Assembly (NCBI GenBank): GCA_014730235.1
Contig: WJIO01000144.1
Span: 1-24,496, forward strand
DNA: 24,496 nucleotides
Origin: Candidatus Poribacteria bacterium
GTDB taxonomy: Bacteria > Poribacteria > DTPJ01 > WJIO01
Direction of reading: 5' to 3'
Numbering within the stretch: position 1 is the first letter of the stretch; each line of letters opens with the position of its first letter. Positions 551 through 7,074 of the stretch are shown here, in pieces. Position numbers and translations under genes: made by a program. The notes beneath the pieces were generated by a model. It was not told the DNA's origin. It saw only the letters and a list, made by a program, of their open reading frames with translations, and did not search any database.

Positions 551-706
551 TATAACTTCAGTTTCAGAAGGCTTTTTCTTTAGTTTTGGCAAGTGAAAGT
601 GAAATTGAGAATTAAATTATGGGGTACTTGGATACCAACTTGTTCCTTAACACAAAGTATTTTCTTTGAGTATATTACTTACAGTTCTGAATGGGGGTGT
701 ATATAT

Positions 707-1000
707 ATGAAGGACGATATTAGAGATTCAGCTGTTGACAATGCAGTGCGAAACGACTATCATTCTGGGATACTTGGAGATGGTGAGAATCTGTCAACAG
801 CAGAAAACAGGTTGTTGACTGTCCAAGAGATCTGTGAACTCCTGAAGGTATCCAAAACCTACATCTACTCGCTGACCAGTCAGAAGAAGATTCCGCATAT
901 CAAGATGCATGGACACTTGAGATTCAGACAGTCAGCCATAGATGAATGGTTGAGATCCAAGGAGATTCACGATGCCGAATATTTATCAACGGAAAAATAA
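707..1000 (+). CDS. Excisionase-like helix-turn-helix DNA-binding protein
   Basis: A 97-residue protein. Its C-terminal half (about residues 40-88) matches the excisionase-family helix-turn-helix fold: LLTVQEICELLKVSKTYIYS, then a basic wing (KIPHIKMHGHLRFRQSAIDEWL). In such proteins the domain binds DNA near attachment sites or promoters and steers the integrase toward excision. I chose the ATG at 707, preceded by a purine-rich GGGGG stretch (692-698), over the upstream GTG at 593, which would add 38 residues unlike the family and has no ribosome binding site. Its end overlaps the integrase start by 29 bases, which suggests coupled translation. It could equally be a small transcriptional regulator of the element. 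Confidence 0.8.
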   Translation: MKDDIRDSAVDNAVRNDYHSGILGDGENLSTAENRLLTVQEICELLKVSKTYIYSLTSQKKIPHIKMHGHLRFRQSAIDEWLRSKEIHDAEYLSTEK

Positions 1001-2009
1001 AAGGACTGCCAAATGGAGCGTATATGTTGTTTTTCCTAACGGACAAAGATTTAGACGCACTGTTGGCACAAAGAAGGAAGCCGAAAGGGTACAGCGGAAA
1101 CTCGAAGCTGAGATAGTTGAGGGCAAATGGGAACTCTGGCTGAAGGAAGATATAACTTTTTCTGATTTAGTTGAGGGATATCTTGAATATTCCAGTACAA
1201 CAAAAGCCAGAAGCACTTCCAGAGGCGATAAATGCAGGATCAATAAACATTTGCTGCCACATTTCGGCAAGATCCCGTTGAGCCAGATAACCCCGCAGAT
1301 GCTTGAGAACTATAAGCAGAAACGGGTAAAGGAAGGTGCAGCACCGGTTACAGTTAATCATGATTTGTCAAACCTCTCACATATGTTTAAAATGGCAATT
1401 CGCTGGGGTTACATTGATAAGAATGCTGCTTCCAGTGTTGAGAGGATGAAAGTTACGAAAAATCTGCCGAGATTCCTCAATCAGGAGGAGATACAACGGC
1501 TTATCGAAGCCGCAGAAGGATCATATATTCATCCGCTTATTGTCACAGCTCTGCATACAGGGATGAGAAAAGGCGAGTTGTTTAACCTTAAATGGATGGA
1601 TATTGATTTTGATCGACGGACTGTAACTATCCAGTCCAAATCTGATTGGCACACCAAAAACTATAAATCCAGGATGATACAACTGACGCCTGTTCTGTAT
1701 AACATTCTTAGGGAGCATAGGGAACGATCAGGATTAAGCGAATATGTTTTCACCTATTGCGGCAAGAAGCTCAAGAGCAATATCAAGAGGACCTGGTCAG
1801 GCGTATTAGGGAAAGCAGGCCTAGAGAGAGTTACTCTCCACACCCTGAGACATACTTTTGCTTCACATTTGGTAATGGCTGGAGTTGCACTCAGGGAAGT
1901 CCAGGAACTGATGGGGCACCAGAGTTATGAGACGACTTTACTATATGCTCATGTGGCGGAGGAGCATTCGAAAAAAAAGGTTCTTCAACTGCCTTATGCA
2001 GGTGGTTGA
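972..2009 (+). CDS. Tyrosine recombinase (phage/ICE-type integrase)
   Basis: A 345-residue site-specific recombinase that cuts and rejoins DNA through a covalent tyrosine intermediate. Residues 1-60 form an AP2-like arm-binding region (YQRKNKRTAKWSVYVVFPNG). Residues 65-150 are the SAM-like core-binding domain. The catalytic domain follows with the expected residues: Arg in TALHTGMRKGEL, Lys near QSKSDWHTKN, His and Arg in LHTLRHTFASH, His in LMGHQSYETT, and the nucleophile Tyr in LLYAHV. The length is normal for the family. It overlaps the excisionase gene and ends 100 bases from the 3' end of tRNA-Arg, the usual layout when a tRNA gene is the integration site. It looks intact and probably active. 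Confidence 0.93.
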   Translation: MPNIYQRKNKRTAKWSVYVVFPNGQRFRRTVGTKKEAERVQRKLEAEIVEGKWELWLKEDITFSDLVEGYLEYSSTTKARSTSRGDKCRINKHLLPHFGKIPLSQITPQMLENYKQKRVKEGAAPVTVNHDLSNLSHMFKMAIRWGYIDKNAASSVERMKVTKNLPRFLNQEEIQRLIEAAEGSYIHPLIVTALHTGMRKGELFNLKWMDIDFDRRTVTIQSKSDWHTKNYKSRMIQLTPVLYNILREHRERSGLSEYVFTYCGKKLKSNIKRTWSGVLGKAGLERVTLHTLRHTFASHLVMAGVALREVQELMGHQSYETTLLYAHVAEEHSKKKVLQLPYAGG

Positions 2010-2130
2010 GGAACGTCTCTGCCACGTATATGCCACAAACAGCAGGTTTTTTGACTCACTTCAGGATAAATAAAGCGCCGTAAAAGCCTACGGCGCTTCA
2101 CTTTGTGTTTGGTATGCCTGGTCGGATTCG
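2010..2130. other. Probable attachment-site region at the element/tRNA-Arg junction
   Basis: The stretch between the integrase stop and the T-arm of tRNA-Arg is where the element-chromosome junction should lie. A short direct repeat, GCCAC, occurs at about 2020 and 2035 and might be part of an integrase arm site. The likely crossover core is the tRNA 3' half from 2110 onward. The second copy of that core would be to the left of this window: I find no repeat of the tRNA 3' end in bases 1-2000. This is inferred from gene order. Confidence 0.4.
2073..2098 (-). terminator. Intrinsic terminator after tRNA-Arg
   Basis: A perfect 10-bp stem (AAGCGCCGTA at 2073-2082 with TACGGCGCTT at 2089-2098) encloses a 6-base loop. 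On the minus strand it is followed by a T-rich run (TTTATTTATCC), so it terminates transcription of tRNA-Arg. It may also act weakly on read-through from the integrase side. Confidence 0.75.
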
Positions 2131-2186
2131 AACCGACGGCCTTTAGATCCGGAGTCTAACGCTCTATCCATCTGAGCTACAGGCAC
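2110..2186 (-). tRNA. tRNA-Arg (anticodon CCG)
   Basis: On the minus strand a full cloverleaf is visible. The acceptor stem GTGCCTG pairs with CAGGCAT (one G-T pair at the end). The anticodon stem TTAGA/TCTAA holds loop CTCCGGA, giving anticodon CCG for codon CGG. The T arm carries TTCGAAT, the discriminator base is A, and CCA is encoded (2110-2112). The integrase next to its 3' end suggests that this gene is an integration target that the element rebuilds on insertion. Confidence 0.97.
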
Positions 2187-2250: not shown

Positions 2251-2514
2251 CCCAAACATAAATTTACATTCCTGTGTTATTACGAAGAATGGGGTGACGA
2301 AGCAATAACATATATAGTAAGTTTTTAGTCTTTATCAGAGGTTTTGGCTCTTCCGGCTTGAGTGTGGAAGTGTAAAAAACATTGTCCAATTAAGATATCC
2401 TCTGTTTGTCATTTCTGCGAAAGCAGGAATGACAAGCTGAGAAAACTTTCAAATTATTACCATACTCAAGCCGGAAGAGCCAAAGTTTTCACGGACATAA
2501 ATTTTATGATTGGG
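2251..2514. repeat. Nested palindromic repeat, copy 1
   Basis: Three palindromes lie inside one another. The outermost arms are CCCAAACATAAATTTACATT (from 2251) and its imperfect reverse complement ending at 2514. The middle arms are a perfect 21-bp inverted repeat (2343-2363 with 2464-2484, core GGCTCTTCCGGCTTGAGT). The innermost is a hairpin at 2408-2433 with arms close to GTCATTCCTGC around GAAA. The left interval also holds a degraded motif resembling CATTGCGAGGAGCG..CGAAGCAATC, a repeat type seen in many bacteria. Related copies lie at 11294-11522 and 20749-20903. There is no open frame of its own, so it is a non-coding, MITE-like or REP-like element. It sits between tRNA-Arg and the trp promoter. 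Confidence 0.85.
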
Positions 2515-2529
2515 CTTGGATTTTTATTC

Positions 2530-2558
2530 TTGACTTATTTAATATTTTCTGGTATTCT
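2530..2558 (+). promoter_or_regulatory. Promoter of the trp leader/operon
   Basis: TTGACT (2530-2535), a 17-base spacer and TATTCT (2553-2558), with an extended -10 TGG immediately upstream. Transcription would start near 2565, giving a leader RNA of about 45 bases before the leader peptide and about 250 bases before the first enzyme gene. Confidence 0.7.
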
Positions 2559-2611
2559 CTATATCAGAATTAATCCTTGTTCATATAATCATTTAAAGCA
2601 GAGGGCACTTA

Positions 2612-2713
2612 ATGTTGATTTCGTTTGCCAATCAAACCAATTTTAATATTAATAACTATTGGCGCTGGTATTGGCGATTTGAAATCTTAATGTGCCCGGA
2701 TGAAAGTGTTTAA
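2612..2713 (+). CDS. trpL: trp operon leader peptide
   Basis: A 33-codon reading frame begins at ATG 2612, preceded by GAGGG at 2601-2605, and stops with TAA at 2711-2713. Residues 16-23 are YWRWYWRF: three Trp codons (2660-2662, 2666-2668, 2672-2674) within five codons, far above chance and typical of a trp leader peptide. It follows a good promoter and precedes an antiterminator/terminator pair and tryptophan genes. The peptide itself is presumably discarded; ribosome stalling at the Trp codons when charged tRNA-Trp is scarce is the signal. The last Trp codon ends 12 bases before the antiterminator arm begins, so a stalled ribosome would leave that arm free, whereas a ribosome reaching the stop would cover it. 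Confidence 0.93.
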   Translation: MLISFANQTNFNINNYWRWYWRFEILMCPDESV

Positions 2714-2762
2714 CTAGAACTAATTTTCATTCAATAATTATAAAAAGCCGCGGGCACATTAA
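2687..2762 (+). promoter_or_regulatory. Trp attenuator: antiterminator pairing
   Basis: TTAATGTGCCCG (2687-2698, inside the last codons of the leader peptide) is perfectly complementary over 12 bases to CGGGCACATTAA (2751-2762). The second segment is also the 5' half of the terminator hairpin, so the two structures exclude each other. A weaker pairing between GGCGC (2661-2665, among the Trp codons) and GTGCC (2692-2696) could act as the 1:2 protector hairpin. This reproduces the four-segment logic of ribosome-mediated attenuation. Confidence 0.88.
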
Positions 2763-2782
2763 AAAGTGTCAGCGGCTTTTTT
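2742..2782 (+). terminator. Trp attenuator: intrinsic terminator
   Basis: AAAAAGCCGC (2742-2751) pairs with GCGGCTTTTT (2772-2781), with a GC-rich 5-bp heart (GCCGC/GCGGC). A small inner hairpin (ACATT with AGTGT, about 2756-2769) and a T run at 2777-2782 complete it. It lies between the leader stop codon and the first enzyme start at 2814 and would end transcription when tryptophan is plentiful. Confidence 0.88.
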
Positions 2783-2813
2783 GTTTGTCAGATCTGACAG
2801 AAGGGGCAGCAAA

Positions 2814-3629
2814 ATGATCGGAAAACAAATCAGAATGGAGCGGATTATAAATCGCGCAACAGAAAAAACTATAATAATTCCTATGGATCACGGTGTTACA
2901 TTGGGGCCTATACACGGTATTACTGATATGGGTAAGACCGTTGATCTGGTGGCCAAAGGTGGTGCAAACGCAGTGGTAGGGCACATGGGTCTGGCCCTTC
3001 ACGGACATCGGGGCTACGGAAGAGATGTGGGTTTAATACTGCACTTGTCGGCCAGTACGTGCCTGAGTCCAGATCCAAATAGTAAAGTCCTTGTAAACTC
3101 CGTCGAACGGGCTATAAAAATGGGTGCTGATGGTGTATCTGTTCATATAAACATTGGTTCAGAAAACGAATCTGATATGCTGATGGATCTGGGAATGATC
3201 TCCCAGCAGTGTATTGATTGGGGAATGCCATTACTGGCCATGATGTATGCCCGGGGGCCAAATATTAAAGACGAAAATGCTGTAGAAGTAGTAAAGATTG
3301 CTGCAAGAGTTGGGGCGGAATTAGGCGCGGATATAATCAAAACCTCATACACAGGTGATCCGGATTCGTTCAGGGAAGTTGTAGATGGATGTCCTGCACC
3401 AGTAGTCATAGCCGGTGGATCAAAGTTGGGTGATCTTAAAACCCTTAAAATGATCGAAGGGGCAATGCAAGCCGGTTGTGCAGGTCTTTCTATAGGTAGA
3501 AATGCTTTCCAGCATGAACATCCTGATAGGTTAGTCCGGGCAGCCTGTGCTATAGTTCACGAAAAATCCACGGCGGAAGAGGCTATGAAACTTCTGGATG
3601 TTCCTGTGGAAGATGATTATTGTAATTAA
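2814..3629 (+). CDS. 2-amino-3,7-dideoxy-D-threo-hept-6-ulosonate (ADTH) synthase, archaeal-type aromatic pathway enzyme
   Basis: A 271-residue class I aldolase-type TIM barrel. The family joins L-aspartate semialdehyde to a 6-deoxy-5-ketofructose-1-phosphate-type donor to make ADTH, which enters the shikimate pathway at dehydroquinate in organisms without DAHP synthase. Visible family marks are [14 protein letters not shown] (Asp25), [22 protein letters not shown] (Tyr145), the Schiff-base Lys176 in [11 protein letters not shown], and [10 protein letters not shown]. Similarity to the Methanocaldococcus enzyme, recalled from memory, runs nearly full length. The start is ATG 2814 with AAGGGG upstream; an in-frame GTG at 2766 lies inside the terminator. 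It is the first gene after the Trp attenuator and is followed 14 bases later by trpC. An annotation as fructose-bisphosphate aldolase (FbaB/DhnA) is possible, but motifs and context favour the aromatic role. Confidence 0.87.
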
Positions 3630-3643
3630 AGGTTATTTCTGTT

Positions 3644-4423
3644 ATGATTCTGGATAAAATTGTCGCTCAAAAAAGGTTGGAAGTTAATAAACAAAAACAA
3701 ACCTTCCCTTTAAACGAAATAAAGTGTAAAATTTATGATACAGATGATATGCGAGATTTCAAAAATGCCATATCATCTTTGGGTAAGGTAAATCTTATAG
3801 CCGAGATAAAAAAGGCTTCACCATCAAGGGGCATTATTCGTCAAGATTTTGATCCAGAGGCAATTGCTGATATATACGAGAACAATGGCGCTGCTGCCAT
3901 ATCAGTTCTCACGGATAAAAAATTCTTCCAGGGTGAGTTAGCCTTCCTGAAAAAAGTTCGCAGTGTGACTGATAGTATTCCCCTTCTGCGTAAAGATTTT
4001 ATAATTGATGAATATCAGATATATCAGTCCAGATTAGCCGGTGCCGATGCTATTTTATTGATAGCGGCGATTCTGGATATTGAAAAAATGAAAAGCTTTT
4101 TGGATACAGCTTACAGCCTACAACTGGATTGCCTTGTAGAAGTGCATACTATTGAAGAGTTAGATACGGTATTAAATACTAATGCGGAAATTATCGGTAT
4201 TAATAACCGAAACCTCAAGACTTTTGAAACTGATATTCATACAACGGAAAAACTTGCTAAAAGGATACCCCGGGATAAGGTTATAGTAAGCGAAAGCGGT
4301 ATATTCACTAAAAGTCATGTTGATATTCTCAGAGGTTGCGGCGTAAATGCTATGTTAGTTGGTGAGTCGCTCATGCGAAGCGATGACATTGGCCTTAAAA
4401 TAAGGCAATTAACTTCACATTAA
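3644..4423 (+). CDS. trpC: Indole-3-glycerol phosphate synthase
   Basis: A 259-residue single-domain TIM barrel that closes the indole ring of tryptophan from carboxyphenylamino-deoxyribulose phosphate, with loss of CO2. The family residues are in place: Glu54 and Lys56 in [11 protein letters not shown], Lys117 in LLRKDFIID, Glu166 in LVEVH, Asn in [10 protein letters not shown], Ser in VSESGI, and the phosphate-binding LVGESLM near the end. The length is normal and there is no fused TrpF domain. It is the second gene of the attenuator-controlled operon, 14 bases after the ADTH synthase and 25 before trpB2. Its ribosome binding site is weak, so translation may depend partly on the gene before it. 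Confidence 0.96.
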
Positions 4424-4448: not shown

Positions 4449-5816
4449 ATGCCAGACAGAACCAAGTTCATACTTGATGAAAAATCAATACCTGCCCAAT
4501 GGTATAACATACAGGCAGATTTGCCGGAACCACTTCCTCCTCCTTTGCATCCGGCAACAGGAAATCCGGTAGGGCCCGATGACCTGGCCCCATTGTTCCC
4601 AATGGAACTGATCAAGCAAGAGGTAAGTACCGAAAGATGGATCGATGTACCCGGTGAAATTCTGGATGTATACAAGCTGTGGAGACCAACCACATTATTC
4701 AGGGCGCATAACCTTGAAAAAGCTCTGGATACACCGGCCAGAATATTCTATAAATACGAGGGAACAAGTCCTCCCGGAAGCCACAAACCTAATACCGCTG
4801 TCGCTCAGGCCTATTACAACGAAAAAGAGGGCATCAAGCGTATTACTACTGAAACGGGAGCCGGTCAGTGGGGAAGTGCCCTTTCTTTTGGCGGCGCTTG
4901 TTTTGATGTGGAGATCAAGGTCTACATGGTGGCCATAAGTTATCATCAAAAACCCTATCGTCGTATAATGATGGAGGCCTGGGGTGGTAAATGTGTACCC
5001 AGTCCCAGCAACGAAACCAACGCCGGAAGAACCATGCTTGAAAAAGATCCTGACTCCCCCGGCAGCCTTGGTCTGGCAATAAGCGAAGCTGTGGAGGAAG
5101 CCGTATCCCGTGAAGACACCCATTATTCTCTAGGAAGTGTGCTTAACCATGTTCTGCTTCACCAAACAGTTATAGGCCAGGAAGCCAAAGAACAGATGGA
5201 AATGGCCGGGTTTTATCCAGATATTATCGTAGGTTGCGTCGGCGGCGGATCAAACGCAGCCGGTATGTATCTGCCTTTCCTGAAGGATAAGATTGATGGC
5301 AAAAAGCCCGACCTTCGCATTATCAATGTTGAACCGGCAAGCTGTCCAACCCTGACAAGGGGACCATATACCTATGACTTTGGTGATGTAGCAGGAATGA
5401 CCCCTCTGCTGAAGATGTTCACCCTTGGTCATGATTTCATTCCGCCTCCTGTACATGCCGGCGGACTTCGCTATCATGGTATGGCCCCGATAATATGTCA
5501 TCTTCATAATCTAGGACTTGTAGAAGCTGTATCCGTACATCAGCTTGAGACCTTTGAAGCTGGTGTATTGTTTGCCAAAACCGAAGGTATAATCAGCGCG
5601 CCTGAGACAAATCATGCAATAAGGGCTGGTATTGACGAAGCTCTTAAATGCAAGAAAAGTGGTGAAGCTAAAACCATACTTATTGCCCATAGCGGTCATG
5701 GTCATGTTGATATGGCAGCTTATCAGGCCTACTTTGAGGGTAAGCTTCATAATTATGATTACCCCGAAGAAAAGATAAAGGAATCACTTTCACACCTGCC
5801 AAAAGTAGGTGATTAA
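4449..5816 (+). CDS. trpB2: TrpB2-type tryptophan synthase beta chain
   Basis: A 455-residue PLP enzyme of the TrpB2 (TrpB-like) group, longer than classical TrpB because of extra N-terminal and internal segments. It carries the substrate-proximal RPTTLFRA, the PLP lysine Lys113 in [33 protein letters not shown], the phosphate-binding [11 protein letters not shown] and the closing HSGHGHVD motif. TrpB2 proteins make tryptophan from indole and serine and usually lack the contact residues that bind TrpA, so they may salvage indole or work alone. A strong AAGGAG (4437-4442) precedes the ATG. It is followed by a strong hairpin and then by classical trpB. No trpA is seen in the window. Confidence 0.92.
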
Positions 5817-5886: not shown

Positions 5887-7074
5887 ATGTTGCCAGACGA
5901 AAGGGGACATTTCGGAATTTACGGAGGTCGGTTCGTACCCGAAACCCTTATGACTGCTCTGCTGGAACTGGAAGAAGCTTATATTAAAGCAAAAGCAGAC
6001 AGCAAATTTCACGAGGAACTTGATTACTACCTGCAGGAATATGCAGGCAGACCCAATCCCCTGTATTATGCGGAAAAACTGACAGAATATCTGGGCGGAG
6101 CTAAGATATATCTCAAGCGGGAAGACCTTAATCATACCGGTTCACATAAAATAAACAACACTCTGGGTCAGGCTTTATTAGCCCGTAGAATGGGAAAAGA
6201 TCGTATTATAGCTGAAACCGGCGCTGGACAGCACGGCGTCGCTGTGGCCACCGTTGCAGCCATATTCGGATTTGACTGCGAAGTCTACATGGGTGATGAG
6301 GATATAGAACGCCAGGCCATAAACGTCTTTCGCATGAAGCTTTTAGGAACTAAGGTTGTGCCAGTATCATCAGGAACCAAAACCCTTAAAGATGCCATAA
6401 ACGAATCATTCCGGGATTGGGTTACAAATGTTCATAATACATATCTCATGGTTGGCTCGGTAGTTTGCGCTCATCCATATCCTGTAATGGTTCGGGATTT
6501 CCAATCTGTCATAGGTAAGGAAGTTAAAACTCAGATAATGGAAAAAGAAGGTCGTTTGCCCGATTACCTGTTAGCTTGTGTAGGCGGTGGAAGCAATTCC
6601 ATGGGGCTTTTTTATCCATTTTACGAAGATAAAGAAGTTAAACTTGTTGGAGTAGAAGCCGGTGGACTGGGACTTAAAACCTTGAAGCATGGGGCATCCC
6701 TGACAGCAGGAACAAGAGGGGTACTTCATGGCAGTATGTGCCATATATTGCAGGATGACGACGGCCAGATAATGCCAACCCATTCGGTATCTGCTGGTCT
6801 GGACTATCCCGGAGTTGGCCCCGAACATAGCTTCTTTAAAGAGAGCAACAGGGCAGAATATGTATCAATTACCGATGAAGAAGCCCTGGAAGCCTTCAAA
6901 CTGCTTTCCGAGCAGGAAGGTATTATCCCAGCGCTGGAATCGGCCCATGCCGTTGCCCATGCCATGAAAATGGCCCCAAAGCTTGATCCTTCTGAGATAA
7001 TAGTTATATGTCTTTCAGGTCGTGGTGATAAGGATGTTCAGACTGTCATTAAGCTTCTTTCAGAAGAGATTTAA
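5887..7074 (+). CDS. trpB: Tryptophan synthase beta chain (classical TrpB1)
   Basis: A 395-residue PLP enzyme that condenses indole with serine, normally in complex with TrpA. All hallmarks are present: [16 protein letters not shown] at the N-terminus, the PLP lysine Lys88 in [23 protein letters not shown], the phosphate loop [18 protein letters not shown], and the C-terminal CLSGRGDKD. The N-terminus and length match the TrpA-interacting class, so a TrpA is expected elsewhere in the genome. GGAG lies upstream of the ATG (5875-5880). It is the last gene of the operon; a palindrome at 7091-7116 separates it from the oppositely oriented ThuA-like gene. Confidence 0.97.

Follow-up and report, generated by a model that had tools for sequence, protein, structure and literature searches.

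A probable ribosome-mediated attenuator of an ADTH synthase–trp operon and its phylum-wide family of leaders with apparently re-coded control blocks

Which amino acids, and by what switch, control an operon that joins the first step of an aromatic pathway to genes for tryptophan synthesis? The window, by which we mean the whole 24,496-nt stretch analyzed (contig WJIO01000144.1 of a Candidatus Poribacteria bacterium), raises this question through four genes on its plus strand: ADTH synthase (2-amino-3,7-dideoxy-D-threo-hept-6-ulosonate synthase; 2814–3629; TIGR01949, NF005556), trpC for indole-3-glycerol phosphate synthase (3644–4423; PF00218, NF001377), a gene for a trpB2-type TrpB-like enzyme (4449–5816; NF009057, TIGR01415), and trpB for tryptophan synthase beta (5887–7074; TIGR00263). 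ADTH synthase opens an alternative pathway toward the precursor shared by the aromatic amino acids, and also serves the synthesis of Tyr and Phe. A first-pass annotation had described the region directly upstream of these genes as a complete trp attenuator in a host that is probably not a proteobacterium. The phylum concerned contributes 84 genomes to a search set of 97,973 species, and a non-proteobacterial host is indeed very probable. Sequence comparison and folding models lead us to conclude, with a probability of about 0.86, that the region is a ribosome-mediated transcription attenuator and belongs to a homologous family, spread through the phylum, in which the control block has apparently been re-coded operon by operon.

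The promoter, Shine-Dalgarno sequence, 33-codon leader, antiterminator, and terminator with T run that had been listed were all found, as follows and all on the plus strand. A sigma-70-type promoter-like site, TTGACT-17-TATTCT (2530–2558), scores 9/12; since 1.7 such sites are expected by chance, it is at chance level taken alone. Similar TTGAC(T/A)-N17 sites lie upstream of all three of the other trpE and ADTH-synthase leaders. The Shine-Dalgarno sequence AGAGG (2600–2604) stands 7 nt before the ATG of the leader peptide gene MLISFANQTNFNINNYWRWYWRFEILMCPDESV (2612–2713; ATG at 2612, TAA at 2711–2713), next to arm 1 (GGGCACTTAA, about 2602–2611). Arm 1, placed by folding and with an equivalent pairing in three other leaders, overlaps the Shine-Dalgarno/start region, and its predicted pairing with arm 2 would hide the leader's own ribosome binding site. 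The control block YWRWYWRF occupies codons 16–23 (2657–2680), the stall range given by constrained folding, and combines Trp codons 17, 19, and 21 with Tyr codons 16 and 20 and Phe codon 23.

Arm 2, the 5' arm of the antiterminator (2687–2698), is perfectly complementary over 12 bp to arm 3 (2751–2762), its 3' arm, which is shared with the terminator. The annotated spacing was likewise borne out: the last Trp codon is separated from arm 2 by 12 nt. The stop codon sits 12 nt beyond arm 2, so the trailing part of a ribosome there could mask it. That arm 2 lies inside the leader frame is correct; the added remark that the classic mechanism requires this is loose, as segment 2 of the Escherichia coli trp leader lies past the leader stop. 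The intrinsic terminator (2743–2782) consists of stem 3:4 (2743–2780) and a T run to 2782, with a ΔG of −20.6 kcal/mol. A simple terminator scan did not pick it up, probably because of an internal G-A mismatch. As a whole, the 221-nt leader folds with a z of −6.4 relative to shuffles, and 0 of 200 shuffles were as good.

Stalling was modeled by folding transcripts that end just past arm 3 while a 30-nt ribosome footprint was kept single-stranded; the probabilities that follow are thermodynamic rather than kinetic and depend on this assumed footprint. With the ribosomal A site at codons 17–22, the probability of helix 2:3 in the window was 0.95–0.96. It fell to 0.73 at F23, 0.27 at E24, and 0 at codons 25–29, and was 0.04 at the stop. 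In the model, then, arm 2 becomes available when the ribosome stalls at the control codons and is masked when the ribosome stands at the stop. The probability of helix 2:3 likewise peaked just before arm 2, and was lost after the ribosome had passed, in five further leaders. For the leaders of G001 ADTH synthase, G000 trpE (G000 being the window's own genome), and G068, arm 2 was freed well only with the ribosome on the final codons of the control block or on those that immediately follow. RNA folded with no ribosome also favored 2:3 at equilibrium in the window (0.95) and in the G001 trpS leader, unlike the other leaders tested, so that termination without translation in the window would depend on kinetics.

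These features suggest the following course of events. Transcription would begin shortly past 2558 and a ribosome would load on the leader. When charged tRNA-Trp (or tRNA-Tyr or tRNA-Phe) is scarce, the ribosome would stall within codons 16–23, blocking the pairing of arm 1 and of the stem over the Trp codons and leaving arm 2 free to pair with arm 3, and RNA polymerase would read into ADTH synthase-trpC-trpB2-trpB. With a good supply the ribosome would continue and cover arm 2 from about codon 24 to the stop; arm 3 would then pair with arm 4, and transcription would end in the T run near 2782.

The closest relatives of this leader allow its pairings to be examined. We aligned four leaders, those of ADTH synthase and trpE in G000 and in G001, two genomes that represent two families of one order. 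In each of them, a short open reading frame with clustered Trp codons follows a Shine-Dalgarno sequence, as in trpL-type attenuators. The G001 ADTH synthase is 80% identical to that of the window and is followed by trpC and trpB2; its leader MFNTTNYQINIRFWRWYWRFYRLVYPRHGG, an ortholog with the block FWRWYWRF, has the same arms and terminator. The block TGGCGCTGGTATTGGCGATTT is identical in these two leaders, and the differences between their arms are matched. A second attenuator in the window's own genome precedes trpE-trpG-trpS-trpD (L184) and has the leader MRTSDAKKVFQIARNWCWWWRNEVRVCPTPD, with the block NWCWWWR and a 17-bp terminator stem, and the G001 trpE-trpG-trpD operon (L185) has the leader MTSETTKTYPVFDNAELNIRFWRWWWRSVLVCPRQE, with the block FWRWWWR. 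The antiterminator and terminator helices are mutually exclusive and carry compensatory changes, mainly in helix 2:3, which is paired in 40 of 40 cells of the alignment with double compensatory changes at 3 of 10 pairs. Control helices slid by 1–3 columns were 12–60% paired and had zero double changes. Column shuffling gave a modest result with four sequences, as 12–15 of 500 shuffles reached the value observed for 2:3. Helix 3:4 is paired in 96% of cells, and one of its pairs has changed on both sides. All four leaders fold with arm 1, at the Shine-Dalgarno/start codon, paired to arm 2.

A covariance model built from the four leaders was then used to search the 84 phylum genomes. It recovered all four, together with a third G001 leader, MEFIFTTLKKHLYKIGIWRWWCIDVQVCPKL (block WRWWC), immediately upstream of trpS (E 2e-10). 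Weaker matches, with E from 1e-4 to 4e-4, came from families f3, f5, and f6, all upstream of trpE; in one example the leader MQTLNRQPQFQIASHHWHWWWHRVEGSSVPLLR is followed by hisI (PF01502, NCBIfam PRK00051) and then trpE. Trp-rich open reading frames close to the gene had earlier been sought at 60 trpE/trpC loci without yielding a convincing leader; that scan had looked too near the gene, given that most of the phylum has hisI between the leader and trpE. Over the 84 genomes, the pattern TGGMGNTGGTAYTGGMGN matched only G000, G001, and one site in G071. The G071 site was rejected because it falls among overlapping long open reading frames away from trp genes, and so was a match in Desulfobacterales HSG2, in a region covered by a large open reading frame. 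Inspection by eye upstream of ADTH synthase in Desulfobacterales, Bacteroidales, Spirochaetes, and Gracilibacteria records showed no such leader.

When trpE upstream regions were examined in nearly all of the 84 genomes, a leader was found before trpE in 68 (61 by pattern and seven by eye), or in 66 of 82 if G000 and G001 are set aside. Eight of the remaining trpE loci are too near a contig edge, three genomes lack a usable trpE locus, and in five the upstream sequence is long enough but shows no recognizable leader (G023, G061, and G067 of family f8, G043, and G075). A hisI-type motif, profile-checked in one genome, stands upstream of trpE in nearly all genomes other than these, and hisI separates leader and trpE in most genomes outside G000 and G001. 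In most family leaders the arm-2 core is found no more than about ten nt ahead of the stop. In a fixed register, at least 6 of 7 core pairs form in 58 of 63 leaders, and the pair types vary (G-C/G-U/A-U, C-G/U-A, C-G/G-U); the type count took leaders with at least 6 of 7 pairs, so its 100% figure is not independent and the variety of types is the informative part. Shuffling the arm-2 segment gave p ≤ 0.05 for 36 of 60 leaders taken individually. Helix 2:3 has 7–9 bp in hisI-trpE leaders versus 10–12 bp in the window's own order. The comparison with related genomes that the first-pass annotation had proposed therefore supports it: homologous upstream regions retain both the Trp codons and the equivalent of the 2687–2698/2751–2762 pairing, with covariation.

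The control codons differ between operons. Among 59 leaders outside the window's order, 22.8% of control-region codons are His and 17.9% Trp, and the codons flanking the first Trp are His in 50 and 57 of the 59. The fourth codon after the first Trp varies between His CAT (18 leaders) and Arg CGT (17), one base apart. Most hisI-trpE leaders interleave His and Trp codons in a block HWHWW, with a few that do not (G074, ICWWPWW). We regard the HWHWW leaders before hisI-trpE (L192, 880–1800 on the minus strand, and about 65 other trpE loci) as candidate joint His/Trp attenuators. The other blocks are WRWWWR or WCWWWR before trpE, WRWWC before trpS, and (Y/F)WRWYWRF before ADTH synthase. In G000 and G001, trpE is unlinked to hisI and the positions equivalent to His read Arg or Cys; the G000 hisI lies on a separate contig without a visible leader, and hisI was not found in the incomplete G001 genome. 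The ADTH-synthase leaders have Tyr in place of one Trp, and Tyr or Phe at flanking positions. The window block YWRWYWRF looks like a re-coded member of the family in which His positions have become Arg or Tyr and one Trp has become Tyr. We infer the direction from His to Arg from the wider spread of the His form, without a rooted tree. We consider it fairly probable that a His+Trp leader of the HWHWW form over hisI-trpE was copied to other operons across the phylum and re-coded by few substitutions (CAY to CGN or TAT; TGG to TAT), giving sensors of Trp only (trpE, trpS) and of Trp, Tyr, and Phe (ADTH synthase).

Whether the window leader responds to more than tryptophan bears on the word trp in its first description: the attenuator reading stands, and the label may be too narrow given the Tyr and Phe codons of the block and a family whose codons follow operon content. 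Sensing of Tyr, Phe, and Trp together would fit an enzyme that starts the route to their common precursor. Alternatively, the same attenuator could sense tryptophan alone, the Tyr, Phe, and Arg codons being leftovers of neutral drift from an HWHWW-like ancestor. For known trp leaders three Trp codons are sufficient, codons for Tyr and Phe are common, and the G001 ortholog has Phe in place of Tyr16. Against drift, both ADTH-synthase leaders, from two different families, carry Tyr at a position where the two trpE leaders have Trp, although only two ADTH-synthase leaders are known and the constancy of Tyr20 therefore rests on two genomes. Moreover, all codons of the block are aromatic except Arg, all of them sit where a stall frees arm 2 in constrained folding, and His codons in relatives likewise accompany hisI. 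Drift with tryptophan-only sensing is a serious possibility that we judge somewhat unlikely, and we infer that the window leader senses Trp plus Tyr/Phe, not Trp alone.

Less probable still is an additional action in trans of the leader peptide or the short terminated RNA, as described for peTrpL of Sinorhizobium meliloti (PMC7298713). The alternating W-R residues would make an unusual cationic-aromatic peptide, but the peptides diverge outside the control block and the arm-2 region, even between orthologs, and we think such a role improbable. It is very unlikely that the hairpins are real and ribosome-independent, as in a T-box, riboswitch, or protein-bound attenuator: RNA without a ribosome does fold strongly, yet no Rfam family reached threshold (the best, Thr_leader, scored 25.4 bits versus 55, E 0.27), the T-box model (RF00230) gave no match at its gathering score, and across families the Trp codons stay in frame at a constant position ahead of arm 2, with the stop a few nt after it. 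Intrinsic terminators are common, but an ordinary upstream-region terminator beside a chance Trp-rich open reading frame can be dismissed in view of the z of −6.4, the perfect 12-bp second pairing, the matched changes in relatives, and leader homologs in most of the phylum.

Ribosome-mediated attenuation of the kind favored here is of an already known class. The window resembles E. coli trpL (RF00513, Trp_leader) in its close Trp codons, its exclusive 1:2, 2:3, and 3:4 helices, its T-run terminator, and the trp genes downstream. It differs in having arm 2 inside the leader frame, an arm 1 that overlaps the leader ribosome binding site, Tyr and Phe codons mixed into the block, and ADTH synthase as the first controlled gene; RF00513 gave no match to the window leader even at E up to 1. 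The E. coli thrABC and ilvGMEDA operons have multivalent leaders, in which a single leader responds to several of the operon's amino acid products. The present family may be similar as judged from codon content, but those leaders serve threonine and the branched-chain group, whereas here the combination would be Trp+Tyr+Phe or, at hisI-trpE, His+Trp, inside a single homologous family that varies with the operon. Both operons are named in PMC1183508. Passages of PMC1262725 predict trp and trpS attenuators of the classical type in Actinobacteria, including several per genome in Corynebacterium diphtheriae (trpB1EDGC and trpB2A) and one at trpS2 in Streptomyces avermitilis, so attenuation outside Proteobacteria was already known. 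The leaders in those passages carry double or triple UGG repeats, and no mixed His/Trp or Tyr/Trp block is described there. The S. meliloti peTrpL/rnTrpL system likewise combines a trp leader peptide with a terminated leader RNA; it has a known trans role (PMC7298713), which for the window leader would be conjecture. A text search of the literature, with most subscription journals outside its scope, returned no paper on joint His/Trp or hisI-trpE leaders. What is new, as read from the sequences, is the mixed control block, the homologous family spanning four or more types of operon, and its His/Trp form.

Leader-peptide attenuation is usually described operon by operon. Here a single homologous switch can be traced through about 70 genomes and over four or more kinds of operon, and its control codons go with the genes present. 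Two questions thereby become testable: can one leader integrate two amino acids as unrelated as His and Trp, and in what way are attenuator sensors re-aimed in evolution? The covariance model also provides a search tool, in a phylum outside Proteobacteria, for very small leader genes overlooked by gene callers.

Several further observations concern individual leaders. In G069 (L140) and G063 (L219), about 12 inserted codons (EHWQCEAKTNS...GRIWWHSN) separate the first Trp of the hisI-trpE leader from the last two, splitting the control block. The leader on G032:C149 (L206), in a family f3 genome, is identical in the part seen to the leader of f5 genomes, possibly through a mis-binned contig or a transfer. 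A different small open reading frame with Phe, Tyr, and Trp codons, MKSQINHTTKFVSYFWFILSEKGVSLDFLKQEE, precedes ADTH synthase in a record labeled Parcubacteria bin.460 (L002, 2680–2832); accompanied by a 14-bp second pairing and a T-tailed terminator, it is a candidate aromatic attenuator of other origin. In L051, labeled Nanohalarchaeota, a small open reading frame ending in LFFILSFYYFS and then a terminator-like hairpin lie no more than about 250 nt upstream of ADTH synthase, which may reflect a mislabeled bacterial contig or chance.

Other observations concern the surroundings of the two attenuated operons in the window's own genome. The trpE-trpG-trpS-trpD operon includes the tryptophanyl-tRNA synthetase gene (L184, 2850–3887), so that the enzyme that charges tRNA-Trp would itself be controlled by tRNA-Trp charging. 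An inverted-repeat element, ggctcttccggcttgagtgtgg (window 2343–2484; 25-nt arms, 96% complementary), lies just 5' of the attenuator promoter, and related repeats also occur 5' of the trpE attenuator (L184, 1–350). Just upstream of the ADTH synthase operon, window positions 593–2186 hold an excisionase-like open reading frame, a tyrosine-recombinase-like open reading frame (972–2009), and a tRNA (2113–2186, minus strand); this arrangement, its members named by sequence appearance except for the tRNA, resembles the edge of an integrated element.
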